DNA of 64,000 bases from Halanaerobium saccharolyticum (lineage in GTDB: Bacteria > Bacillota > Halanaerobiia > Halanaerobiales > Halanaerobiaceae): NCBI RefSeq assembly GCF_003259895.1, contig NZ_QLME01000004.1, forward strand, positions 1 to 64,000. Reading direction: 5' to 3'. Numbering within the stretch: position 1 is the stretch's first letter; each line of letters begins with the position of its first letter. The position numbers and the translations under genes are program-made. The notes under the pieces are model-generated. The model was not told where the DNA came from, ran no database searches, and was given only the letters and a program-made list of their open reading frames with translations. Positions 13,459-63,738 of this stretch are shown here, piece by piece.

Positions 13459-13881
13459 ATGGAACATAATAGTTTAGAAACTGCAAAAGCAGCTATTAAA
13501 ATGGCTATTTCTACTAGAAGTGAAGAAAAACAATTAAAAAAAGAGTTTGCAGCTGACGAGATAAATACTGCTGCTGTAGATTTTGGTGGTGAATTTAATA
13601 AATCTGTTCCTGAAATCATTGAAAGAGCAGTAATTGCTGCCAAACGTGAAAATATAATAGACGAATCACATGTCGCCCAGGGAGCAGTTGCTGGAGCAGC
13701 TCATGATGCAGTTACTCAGATTATGCCCAGAACAATGGGTTTAAATGTCGGAGGTAAAATTGGTGTTGCCCGCAGTGGGGAACATATAGTTGTTGCTGTC
13801 TTTTTTGGAGTTGGGATGTTCAATTTAAATGAAGTTACTGTTGGTTTAAGTCACCGTTCATTACTTGATAAAGAGGCTTAA
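13459..13881 (+). CDS. hutP: HutP-family RNA-binding regulator
   Basis: A 140-residue protein. The block DESHVAQGAVAGAAHDAVTQ corresponds to the ESHxxxHATMEAL region of Bacillus HutP. The C-terminal FNLNEVTVGLSHRSL matches HutP's FGVGINH end, with the His that helps bind Mg2+/L-histidine. HutP hexamers bind UAG-containing mRNA and prevent termination in the hut operon. No hut enzymes are nearby. Its stop is only 39 bases before a strong promoter with a terminator-bearing leader for an ABC transporter, which suggests a local target (inference). GAGGAGG precedes the start. Confidence 0.78.
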   Translation: MEHNSLETAKAAIKMAISTRSEEKQLKKEFAADEINTAAVDFGGEFNKSVPEIIERAVIAAKRENIIDESHVAQGAVAGAAHDAVTQIMPRTMGLNVGGKIGVARSGEHIVVAVFFGVGMFNLNEVTVGLSHRSLLDKEA

Positions 13882-13920: not shown

Positions 13921-13950
13921 TTGACAAAGGTACACATATAATAGTATAAT
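13921..13950 (+). promoter_or_regulatory. Promoter of the TrpXYZ-like ABC operon
   Basis: A perfect TTGACA (13921-13926) and perfect TATAAT (13945-13950) with an 18-base spacer. It lies about 185 bases upstream of the first gene, leaving a long structured leader. Confidence 0.8.
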
Positions 13951-13956
13951 AAAGAA

Positions 13957-14100
13957 AATCAAATAACTGGTAGCATGGTAATACGGTAGGAGAATTTGTA
14001 GGGAAGCTAAAGCTATTTGTTTAGACAAGGGGTATTTTTACCTAATTTTAAGCTAAATAGCTAAGAGCAATTTAACACTCCACCAGGAGTGTTTTTTTAT
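13957..14100 (+). promoter_or_regulatory. Structured 5' leader with an intrinsic terminator (unassigned class)
   Basis: The leader contains AGCTATTT (14011-14018), which can pair with AAATAGCT (14055-14062), and a GGGTA/TACCT hairpin (about 14031-14043). It ends in a clean terminator: ACACTCC and GGAGTGT around ACCA, then seven T (14075-14097). Five UAG triplets lie at 13971, 13987, 13999, 14022 and 14058. No T-box, SAM, purine, lysine, TPP, cobalamin, preQ1, glycine or ykkC consensus was recognised. It is either an unfamiliar riboswitch or a protein-controlled leader, possibly HutP-controlled. Confidence 0.6.
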
Positions 14101-14134
14101 TATCCCCACTACCAGTTAGAAAGGGGAATAAAAA

Positions 14135-15112
14135 ATGAAAAAGACTTTTTCGATTTTAATTGTTTTAACAGTTTTTTTAGTCTTAATCAGCAGCTTTGCA
14201 GGTGCCCAGGAGTATAGAATAGGTATTTCGCAATTTGTGGAACATCCTGCTTTAGATGCTGCACGCGAAGGTTTTATTAAGGGACTTGCTGAAGCAGGCT
14301 TTAGTGAAGAAAACATCGAATTTATTGAACAAAATGCACAGGCTGATTTTGCCACAGCTCAATCTATTGCTCAGCAGTTTAAGGGGGATAACCTTGACTT
14401 GATACTAACAATTGCTACTCCTAATGCTCAGGCTGCAGCAAATGTAATTACAGATACACCAGTATTATTTACTGCTGTAACTGATCCTGAAGAAGCAGGT
14501 ATAGTTGCAAGCATGGAGCGTCCAGGTGGAAACCTGACTGGAACTACAGATATGAATCCGGTTGCTCAACAGATTGAATTAATTAAAGAATTTATTCCCG
14601 AAATAACTGATCTGGGAGTCCTTTATAATCCAGGTGAAGTAAACTCTGTTGTCCAGGTTGATCTGGTAAAAGAAACTACAGCAGAAATGGGAATTAATTT
14701 GCATGAAGGTACAGTCAGCAACAGCAGTGAAGTTAGTCTTGCTGCCTCATCCTTAATCGGAGATGTTGATGCAATTTATGTTCCTACAGATAATATTATT
14801 GTATCTGCTTTACCTTCTGTTTTAAATATTACCAATCAAAATAATATCCCTGTATTTGCATCAGAAAATGGGCAGGTGAGACAGGGTTCAATTGCTACTT
14901 TAGGAATTGACTATAATTTATTAGGAGTTCAAACTGGTAAAATGGCAGCCCGGGTCTTAAATGGTGCTGATCCTGCAGAAATGGCAGTAGAATCTTCAGA
15001 TCAATTGAAATTATATCTAAATAAAAAAGCTGCTGAAAATTTAAACCTGGAAATTCCAGCTGCTGTCTTAGATAGAGCTGATGTAATTTACGAAGAAATT
15101 ACACAGGAATAA
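14135..15112 (+). CDS. ABC transporter substrate-binding protein (TrpX-like, PF04392 type)
   Basis: A 325-residue exported binding protein. A signal peptide (1-24) ends AGA-QE with no lipobox Cys. The mature part has the two-domain DUF534/TrpX pattern: YRIGISQFVEHPALDAAREGF, LILTIATPNAQAAANV, TDPEEAGIV and a hinge near IPVFASENGQV. This family serves amino-acid-like substrates in some Firmicutes. GAAAGGGG precedes the start. It is first in a three-gene operon with permease and ATPase, controlled by the leader upstream. Substrate not assigned. Confidence 0.87.
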   Translation: MKKTFSILIVLTVFLVLISSFAGAQEYRIGISQFVEHPALDAAREGFIKGLAEAGFSEENIEFIEQNAQADFATAQSIAQQFKGDNLDLILTIATPNAQAAANVITDTPVLFTAVTDPEEAGIVASMERPGGNLTGTTDMNPVAQQIELIKEFIPEITDLGVLYNPGEVNSVVQVDLVKETTAEMGINLHEGTVSNSSEVSLAASSLIGDVDAIYVPTDNIIVSALPSVLNITNQNNIPVFASENGQVRQGSIATLGIDYNLLGVQTGKMAARVLNGADPAEMAVESSDQLKLYLNKKAAENLNLEIPAAVLDRADVIYEEITQE

Positions 15113-15167
15113 AATTTAGAATAACTTTAAATAAAATATGTAGTTTAGAAATGGTGTGAGGTGTGTT

Positions 15168-16034
15168 ATGAATCTAAGTTTTGCAATTACGTCTTTAGAA
15201 CAGGGCCTGGCCTTTGGGATCATGGCCCTGGGTGTATTTATATCTTTTAGAATTCTTGATTTTGCTGATCTTACTGTAGACGGCAGTCTCCCTTTAGGAG
15301 CTGCAGTTTCGGCAAGATTATTAACCATGGGAATGAATCCTTTTATTTCTCTGGGAGCAGCTATCATTGCCGGTGGATTTGCTGGAGCAATTACAGGGTT
15401 TTTAAATACTAAATTAAAAATTGCTCCTCTCCTATCCGGGATTTTAACTATGACTTCTTTATATTCTATTAATTTAAGGGTCATGGGCAGACCAAATATT
15501 CCACTGATAGGTAAAGATACCATCTTTTCTTTTATTAGAGATCTTGGTGTTCCTTATCCCTGGAATAATCTGCTTTTATTAATTTTAATTATTGTCGCTG
15601 TTAAATTAGTTCTGGATGCATTTTTAAATACCCAGATTGGTTTTGCTCTCAGAGCTACTGGAGATAATCCACAGATGATTAGAAGTATGGGAATCAGTAC
15701 CAATTCAATGAAAATGCTGGGATTAATAATTTCCAACGCTCTAGTTGCATTATCTGGTGCACTTGTTGGTCAGTATCAGGGATTTGCAGATGTAAATATG
15801 GGAGTTGGTACAATTGTAGCCGGTCTGGCTTCCGTTATTATTGGTGAGGTTGTAATTGGAGAAAAATCAATTATGATTGCAACTATTGGAGTTATCATTG
15901 GTTCTATTCTTTATCGTTTTAGTATTTCTATTGCCCTGAATCTGGGACTTGCAGCTTCTGATTTGAAATTATTAACAGCTATACTGGTTATTATTTTTCT
16001 ATCAACTCCAAGAATAAAAAAAGCATTGAGGTGA
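15168..16034 (+). CDS. ABC transporter permease (TrpY-like, COG4120 type)
   Basis: A 288-residue membrane protein with about eight helices, of the LivH/BPD_transp_2-related group. The motif ALRATGDNPQMIRSMGIS is the cytoplasmic loop that contacts the ATPase. The ATG at 15168 is preferred over an in-frame GTG at 15156 because the GTG lies within the ribosome-binding region and GAGGTG is 4 bases before the ATG. It lies between the binding-protein gene and, after 6 bases, the ATPase gene. Confidence 0.88.
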   Translation: MNLSFAITSLEQGLAFGIMALGVFISFRILDFADLTVDGSLPLGAAVSARLLTMGMNPFISLGAAIIAGGFAGAITGFLNTKLKIAPLLSGILTMTSLYSINLRVMGRPNIPLIGKDTIFSFIRDLGVPYPWNNLLLLILIIVAVKLVLDAFLNTQIGFALRATGDNPQMIRSMGISTNSMKMLGLIISNALVALSGALVGQYQGFADVNMGVGTIVAGLASVIIGEVVIGEKSIMIATIGVIIGSILYRFSISIALNLGLAASDLKLLTAILVIIFLSTPRIKKALR

Positions 16035-16040
16035 TAAAAA

Positions 16041-16838
16041 ATGCTGAAAGTCAAAAATTTAGAAAAAATATTTTATAAAGGTACTCCAAATGAGAATGTA
16101 GCAATTAATAAAATTGATTTAACTGTCAATGAAGGAGATTTTATTACAATAGTAGGTAGTAACGGAGCAGGTAAATCAACCCTTTTGAATTCTATTGCTG
16201 GAGTTTTTCCAGTTGAAAATGGTACTATAATTTTAGATAATGAAGATATCACAAAAAAATCTGAATACAAATGTGCTCAGGAAATTGGGCGAGTCTTTCA
16301 GAATCCACTTGCTGGAACTTCTCCTGAGATGACAATCGAAGAAAATCTATCACTGGCTATTTCTAAAAGCAATAATCTTTCTCTTAAATGGGGTTTGAGC
16401 AAACATAAGAGAGAAATCATGCGTAAACACCTGGAAAAAATTGATCTAGGGCTAGAAAAAAGGCTAACTACAAAAGTTAAGCTCCTATCTGGTGGACAGA
16501 GGCAGGCTTTAACTCTTTTGATGGCGACGGTAGCTAATCCCCGTCTGTTATTATTGGATGAGCATACAGCTGCTTTAGATCCTGCAACAGCAATTAAAAT
16601 TAAAAATTTAACTGCAGAATTGGTCAATGAAAATAATATTACAACATTAATGATTACTCATAATATGGAAGATGCTATTAAAATGGGCAACCGTTTGATT
16701 ATGATGGATGGCGGCCAGATTATTTATGATATTAAGGCTGAAGAAAAAGAAGAATTAACAATAGAAAAACTGCTCAAAATGTTTGAAATCAAGCACGGTG
16801 GTAAATTTAATAATGATCGGATGTTACTATCAGTTTAA
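16041..16838 (+). CDS. ABC transporter ATPase (TrpZ-like, COG1101 type)
   Basis: A 265-residue ABC nucleotide-binding subunit. Walker A GSNGAGKST (about 38-46), Q-loop FQNP, signature LSGGQRQAL, Walker B LLLLDEHTAAL (the usual DEP is DEH here, a feature of this ATPase group) and the switch His in MITHNM are all present. It energises the preceding permease. It is last in the operon and is followed by a terminator 24 bases after the stop. Confidence 0.92.
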   Translation: MLKVKNLEKIFYKGTPNENVAINKIDLTVNEGDFITIVGSNGAGKSTLLNSIAGVFPVENGTIILDNEDITKKSEYKCAQEIGRVFQNPLAGTSPEMTIEENLSLAISKSNNLSLKWGLSKHKREIMRKHLEKIDLGLEKRLTTKVKLLSGGQRQALTLLMATVANPRLLLLDEHTAALDPATAIKIKNLTAELVNENNITTLMITHNMEDAIKMGNRLIMMDGGQIIYDIKAEEKEELTIEKLLKMFEIKHGGKFNNDRMLLSV

Positions 16839-57835: not shown

Positions 57836-57916
57836 TTTATACCTCCTGGGTGTTATAAAATTATTGAAAAACTTCTGTCAAATTCCCTCTTTTTAAACTA
57901 TAAATTTAAATGGACA

Positions 57917-57957
57917 TTAAAAAACTCCCTACCAGTTTGACTGATAAGGAGTTTAAA
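57917..57957 (-). terminator. Attenuator terminator before pyrP
   Basis: On the minus strand AAACTCC pairs with GGAGTTT, with inner CAG/CTG, followed by TTTTTT. It sits between the PyrR-binding loop at 58019-58032 and the pyrP start, the normal layout of a PyrR attenuator. Confidence 0.85.
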
Positions 57958-58018
57958 TTCTTTAAGCATTTTCTATCTACTTTTACAGAGATAGAGTCTG
58001 CTGATTTAATTCCTTACC

Positions 58019-58032
58019 GGCCTCTCTGGACC
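58019..58032 (-). promoter_or_regulatory. PyrR-binding loop in the pyrR-pyrP intercistronic region
   Basis: The minus strand reads GGTCCAGAGAGGCC, matching the PyrR loop consensus ARUCCNGNGAGGYU apart from the first two bases. It is within 50 bases of the pyrR stop, so it acts on readthrough transcripts from pyrR. Confidence 0.88.
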
Positions 58033-58066
58033 AATTTAAAGGATATACTATTTAATTATTTTTATC

Positions 58067-58697
<631 letters not shown>

Positions 58698-58721
58698 CTA
58701 AAATTTATATTTTCCCTTACT

Positions 58722-58737
58722 AGCCTCTCTGGACTAA
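58722..58737 (-). promoter_or_regulatory. PyrR-binding loop in the pyrR leader
   Basis: The minus strand reads TAGTCCAGAGAGGCTA, an exact fit to the PyrR anti-antiterminator loop consensus, between the pyrR promoter and its attenuator terminator. Confidence 0.9.
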
Positions 58738-58766
58738 TTTAAAGAATCATTATCTTATTTGAAATA

Positions 58767-63461: not shown

Positions 63462-63587
63462 TGAACTACCTCCACTTTTTTTCTTTTACTAGAATCACTC
63501 CAGTGATTTTAGAAATTCTACTTTATTACTTTACTTCTTTATTCCCTTAATCTGCTTTTAAATCAAAGCACTAAAGTTTATTGATAA

Positions 63588-63626
63588 AAATAAAACCCTC
63601 GCACCAGAAAGAATGGTTTGAAGGTT
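63588..63626 (-). terminator. Attenuator terminator before carA
   Basis: On the minus strand AACCTTCAAACC pairs with GGTGCGAGGGTT, with small internal mismatches, and is followed by TTATTTTTAT. It lies downstream of the PyrR loop. Confidence 0.75.
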
Positions 63627-63685
63627 AAAATTGATATAGTTAGACTATAAAATGCTAAATATAGCTATACCTGTATACCTTTACC

Positions 63686-63700
63686 AGCCTCTCTGGACTG
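63686..63700 (-). promoter_or_regulatory. PyrR-binding loop in the carA leader
   Basis: The minus strand reads CAGTCCAGAGAGGCT, an exact consensus match. Flanking CCTTT and AAAGG (63678-63710) close the anti-antiterminator stem. Confidence 0.9.
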
Positions 63701-63738
63701 ATTTAAAAGGAAATTATATTCTTTTATTATTGTTGTAT

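Follow-up and report, generated by a model that had tools for sequence, protein, structure and literature searches.

We propose that the leader of a TrpX-like ABC transporter operon in the window (the whole 64,000-nucleotide stretch of Halanaerobium saccharolyticum DNA analyzed here) acts by transcription attenuation, with translational control as a second layer, and would be read by HutP-A, the protein encoded next to it, with an aromatic amino acid as the probable ligand. Based on sequence comparison and folding calculations, we put the probability of this reading at about two in three. To our knowledge, HutP has been described in a single role, histidine-induced antitermination. The HutP-A branch, found across anaerobic Firmicutes, apparently has a different ligand pocket and a different RNA code and probably exerts control in the opposite direction. 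If true, evolution would have arrived independently at another protein-based answer to the problem that TRAP solves, and the system would provide a likely ligand class for an orphan ABC transporter together with testable sites in dozens of genomes.

The locus and its leader RNA

The leader promoter follows 40 bases after the end of the hutP-A gene, and the locus contains the following features:

13459-13881, + strand: hutP-A, encoding the HutP-family RNA-binding protein HutP-A, the proposed regulator (PF09021, E 4.1e-45; fold comparison)
13921-13950, + strand: leader promoter of the sigma-70 type, TTGACA-18-TATAAT (12 of 12 consensus positions; kept in relatives)
13965-13973, + strand: AACUGGUAG, 5' strand of a long-range helix with the loop of the Shine-Dalgarno (SD) hairpin, overlapping repeat 1 (minimum free energy helix; swap test)
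13969-13992, + strand: array of three 8-nt repeats, GGUAGCAU GGUAAUAC GGUAGGAG, the proposed HutP-A binding site (conservation; sole exact match in the genome)
13985-13992, + strand: repeat 3, GGUAGGAG, the proposed antiterminator strand (nascent-RNA pairing with 14078-14084, about 7 expected pairs)
14006-14068, + strand: variable spacer hairpin, including the AGCUAUUU/AAAUAGCU and GGGUA/UACCU pairs (fold; comparison of relatives)
14074-14098, + strand: intrinsic terminator, AACACUCC-ACCA-GGAGUGUU plus U tract (terminator search; conserved core)
14078-14084, + strand: CUCCACC in the 5' arm and loop of the terminator, which would pair with repeat 3 (complementarity; nascent-RNA folding)
14103-14127, + strand: putative SD-sequestering hairpin UCCCC/GGGGA, whose loop holds CUACCAGUU (14109-14117; array-blocking accessibility calculation)
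14135-15112, + strand: ABC substrate-binding protein (SBP), TrpX-like (PF04392, 8.9e-89; NF041285 below cut-off)
15156-16034, + strand: ABC permease (PF02653)
16041-16838, + strand: ABC ATPase (PF00005)

The preliminary description of this DNA had reported a strong consensus promoter, a conserved-looking structured region and a terminator before the operon, all of which were recovered here. The promoter ranks first among 29 in the region, and the terminator consists of an 8-pair stem (14074-14093) followed by a T tract. The folding energy of positions 13957-14100 is -34.9 kcal/mol (z -2.6 relative to shuffles) and falls to -51.3 kcal/mol (z -3.6) when the leader is extended through the SD region to 14150; DNA matches to the leader occur in 14 of 61 relatives. 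Because the SD region is part of the switch, the interval is better drawn to approximately 14137 instead of ending at 14100. The downstream SBP scores 303 bits against the NCBIfam TrpX model NF041285, the cut-off of which is 390 bits, and the operon is thus described as TrpX-like or TrpXYZ-like, that is, related but not assigned.

The AGCUAUUU/AAAUAGCU and GGGUA/UACCU pairs that had been singled out earlier are indeed present in the fold, but they belong to the spacer between array and terminator, which varies widely in length and sequence among species while keeping its hairpin tendency. The most conserved part of the leader is instead CUGGUAGCAUGGUAAUACGGUAGGAG, in which three GGUA units recur with an exact 8-nt period (13969-13988). 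Aligning the leaders of orthologous operons, as had been suggested, supported conservation and revealed a few compensatory changes (3 of 31 pairs altered on both sides among eight relatives); covariation within the genus is limited, with the array and terminator nearly invariant. The ACACUCC/GGAGUGU terminator core is kept in most related leaders.

No Rfam covariance model exceeded its gathering threshold in the leader, where the top sub-threshold match reached 18.8 bits and permissive thresholds returned chance matches only. Nothing matching it was found in the literature searched, from which most subscription journals were absent and in which nothing paired HutP with chorismate mutase, aromatic amino acids, Halanaerobium or Moorella; the earlier placing of this leader in an unrecognized class therefore holds. 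Conservation, two alternative folds and the lack of an Rfam class would suit a new small-molecule riboswitch in which the RNA itself binds an amino acid. We nevertheless regard such a riboswitch as improbable: no conserved junction or pocket is present, the span from array to terminator varies in sequence and length, and the bases that are conserved fall into a periodic array whose distribution follows that of a protein gene. Of the two possibilities raised previously, a riboswitch is thus unsupported, whereas a protein-controlled leader is supported by this association with hutP and by the complementarity of the array to the terminator and SD regions. The gene upstream of the leader (13459-13881), overlooked at that time, is the likely regulator.

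HutP-A and the distribution of the array

HutP-A is, by profile and predicted fold, a HutP-family protein. Residues 9-133 match the whole-domain profile PF09021 with an E-value of 4.1e-45, compared with 2.4e-32 for B. subtilis HutP. Its AlphaFold model (pLDDT 92) retrieved HutP structures as all top 10 Foldseek hits in the PDB (1vea, E 3.2e-07, TM 0.77), and VIA-align gave a Z of 16.8 to HutP 4ok9 versus 8.1 for the next fold. HutP was identified by the Pfam profile and by the fold search but went undetected in PDB sequence searches, whether the query was the protein alone or a 10-member profile. In a sequence alignment with an ungapped helix register, H73, H77 and H138 of B. subtilis HutP, which we take to be the residues holding the metal and L-histidine, correspond to invariant G75, invariant G79 and L123 of HutP-A. 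With these histidines replaced by Gly, Gly and Leu, histidine sensing of the known type is unlikely. The branch carries no name in NCBIfam.

Two further HutP branches are encoded in the same genome. One (L173:4523-4993; approximately 156 aa) overlaps the start of an ABC exporter-like gene, and no array was seen there. The other (L174:4094-4885), located between ispF-like and gltX-like genes, joins the HutP domain to an N-terminal stretch resembling a CBS-domain pair; this CBS-like-HutP fusion represents a third branch of approximately 265 aa that occurs across the class.

The exact 3x GGUA(N4) pattern has a single occurrence in the H. saccharolyticum genome and was found in 0 of 100 shuffles of the window. 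Across 59 Halanaerobiia genomes it has 36 matches, 26 of them beside hutP-A; the remaining 10 are about as many as the matches given by a reversed control pattern in the same genomes (approximately 15). The order hutP-leader-SBP-permease is present in all 13 genomes of the family (Halanaerobium and its neighbors) that have the leader, and also in other families and orders. Elsewhere in Halanaerobiia and Clostridia, arrays, usually with a terminator, lie upstream of hutP-aroH-hisC-aroF-tyrA-aroA, of aroF alone or of the ABC operon. The arrays of family f8 comprise 3-6 repeats upstream of a hutP-A gene that heads this aro operon, and more degenerate GUAG clusters occupy the same position in family f11. 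Two repeat clusters occur in the aro leaders, compared with one cluster of three GGUA units in the window. HutP-A mostly adjoins aroH in the named genomes; in Thermoanaerobacterales and some Clostridium it adjoins SBP-permease-ATPase genes, and trpE-trpG-trpD comes after hutP-aroH in Moorella and Thermincola.

We also scanned 299 phylum genomes with a 21-nt pattern, GGTAG(N3) x3, blind to gene content. At 10 of the approximately 17 loci the array preceded aroF, hutP-aroH or ABC genes, mostly with a terminator and in several cases with no hutP nearby; L178, L179, L185, L186, L187 and L192, which have no leader features, were treated as chance. All genomes with leader-like arrays that were checked encode HutP-A (149-174 bits), whereas among the five genomes with chance-looking matches HutP is absent from three and scores 139-142 bits in two. 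Some HutP-A genomes have no visible array (L037, L040, L044 and several hutP-aroH loci). From the adjoining genes, the common theme of the putative regulon appears to be aromatic amino acids. The L177 array belongs to the leader preceding a tryptophanase/tyrosine phenol-lyase-like gene, a target in aromatic catabolism at which the direction of control may be different.

Several further observations were made at these loci. A gene for a small membrane-anchored protein recurs upstream of hutP-aroH (L078:5-571, with similar ORFs before hutP in L110, L125, L149 and L083). In L193 the array is located at the aroF start codon inside a hisC-aroF-tyrA operon, and no terminator was seen. The Clostridium-type genomes L117, L131 and L157 contain a second GGUAG array (GGAUGGUAGUAUGGUAG or near) over the SD and start of the SBP gene, which suggests direct translational control.

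TRAP itself is encoded in 47 of the 59 class genomes, including that of H. saccharolyticum (G000:C17:60476-60679), and a few UAG/GAG triplets are present in the leader, so that a tryptophan-bound TRAP ring might be thought to read it. A TRAP site comprises approximately 11 (G/U)AG triplets spaced 2-3 nt apart (PMC3913778); the leader has about four of them close to the array, with UAA in repeat 2, and UAA predominates in the arrays of family f6. Moreover, none of the five f6 genomes encodes TRAP, yet the array and hutP-A are kept there. A site typical of TRAP, with about eleven closely spaced GAG/UAG triplets, does occur in the trpE leader of the H. saccharolyticum genome (L175:1172-1230, contig C2) and is quite unlike the GGUA array. 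TRAP was accordingly rejected as the reader of the array on motif and phyletic grounds, and we consider this role for it highly improbable; the coexistence of two attenuation systems, TRAP and HutP-A, in this genome is somewhat favored.

The array might also be a DNA operator read by a DNA-binding protein just downstream of the promoter, as it starts about 12 nt past the expected transcription start in the genus of the window. This seems very doubtful, since the f8 and f11 arrays form two clusters and are not at a fixed distance, Clostridium arrays occur also at the start codon, and complementarity to the terminator and SD regions makes sense only in RNA.

Alternative pairings and the proposed switch

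Folding of the nascent RNA up to the terminator loop predicted approximately 7 expected pairs between repeat 3 (GGUAGGAG) and CUCC-ACC in the 5' arm and loop of the terminator, a helix that would enclose the spacer hairpin. Compared with shuffled arrays, this antiterminator pairing was more extensive in 15 of 16 aro leaders (9.2 versus 6.0 pairs), slightly so in 9 of 13 leaders of the genus of the window, and in only two of eight other ABC leaders. Four pattern-found leaders (L180, L188, L190 and L191) form 7-8 contiguous pairs with the last repeat, which in L190 and L191 are UCCUACC against GGUAGGA, and the array of L031 gave -16.6 with its own terminator versus -7.3 with those of others. Swapping repeat and terminator partners between leaders gave a weak signal (z -2.0 for all leaders, z -1.1 for representatives), so it is the aro leaders and the leaders found independently by pattern that support the antiterminator.

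The loop of the SD hairpin is complementary to the first repeats, through AACUGGUAG/CUACCAGUU in the window and through other sequences in other groups. Among nine representatives, own array and SD-loop partners were better than swapped ones (z -2.9; 162 of 100000 permutations). Blocking the array lowered predicted SD accessibility from 0.46 to 0.02 in the window leader and from a mean of 0.50 to 0.10 across leaders, compared with 0.51 for other 24-nt blocks; the effect was reversed in L012 and absent in L094 and L099.

We infer that abundant ligand, probably an aromatic amino acid, would lead HutP-A to bind the three GGUA repeats as single-stranded RNA and take repeat 3 from the antiterminator helix, so that the terminator would fold and the ABC operon would be off. 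In transcripts that read through, repeat 1 would be lost from the long-range helix, and the UCCCC/GGGGA hairpin would mask the ribosome-binding site. Under ligand scarcity, the free array would pair first with the terminator arm and later with the SD-hairpin loop, and the transporter genes would be on. The predicted terminator and SD effects point the same way, with protein on the array corresponding to genes off. Tyrosine fits the f8 operon as a candidate ligand, and tryptophan fits Moorella and the TrpX-like protein; ligand-dependent repression would sit oddly with the lyase-like target in L177.

HutP-A on the array could instead serve as a positive antiterminator, as in the hut operon, opening the terminator and turning the transporter on. 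This is unlikely in our judgment, even though the fold is shared with HutP, the aro leaders also have two clusters and one target is a catabolic lyase. The repeats are 5' of the terminator and overlap the antiterminating strand, and binding should therefore favor termination; biosynthetic operons, moreover, are expected to be repressed by their end products. Returning to repression by HutP-A, we lean slightly toward the broader view that a widespread, undescribed HutP branch constitutes an aromatic amino acid-sensing RNA attenuation protein with its own code (GGUAG in tandem, one per 8 nt). In Halanaerobiia and Clostridia it would control operons of the shikimate/tyrosine and tryptophan pathways and of aromatic transport, would be TRAP-like but independently evolved, and would coexist with TRAP.

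Comparison with known attenuation systems

HutP of B. subtilis, a hexameric RNA-binding protein, works as an antiterminator once L-histidine and Mg2+ have activated it, and its RNA target consists of two clusters of three NAG triplets (PMC7430163), an arrangement that is not found in the window leader. The two systems share the fold, the Pfam family, a regulator gene adjoining its target, a short motif that recurs in the RNA in groups of three and, as proposed for HutP-A, terminator-based control. They differ in the motif (GGUA(G) at an 8-nt period versus NAG triplets), in the apparent targets (aromatic amino acid transport and biosynthesis versus histidine utilization) and in the overlap of the HutP-A array with the antiterminator, which suggests opposite polarity.

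The control of trp by TRAP has the same architecture, an antiterminator-blocking repeat array combined with an SD-sequestering hairpin (PMC3913778). In the proposed logic, both systems would use a protein on a repeat array to block an antiterminator, with an SD hairpin adding translational control of aromatic genes. TRAP differs from HutP-A in protein fold, motif and spacing, and the genome of H. saccharolyticum has TRAP as well.

T-box leaders of trpXYZ-type transporters are similar in that a leader with a terminator stands ahead of an ABC operon of this type; unlike these, the window leader has no T-box match in Rfam. PyrR-controlled leaders, likewise protein-controlled attenuators with an antiterminator, occur three times in the window, where PyrR binding sites (RF00515) above the gathering score were identified on the - strand at 57916-58046, 58661-58749 and 63586-63714 as attenuators of pyrimidine genes. 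The PyrR target, in contrast, is a structured stem-loop, and its ligands are pyrimidines. We call the window system a HutP-family protein with putatively TRAP-like logic and a distinct RNA code.
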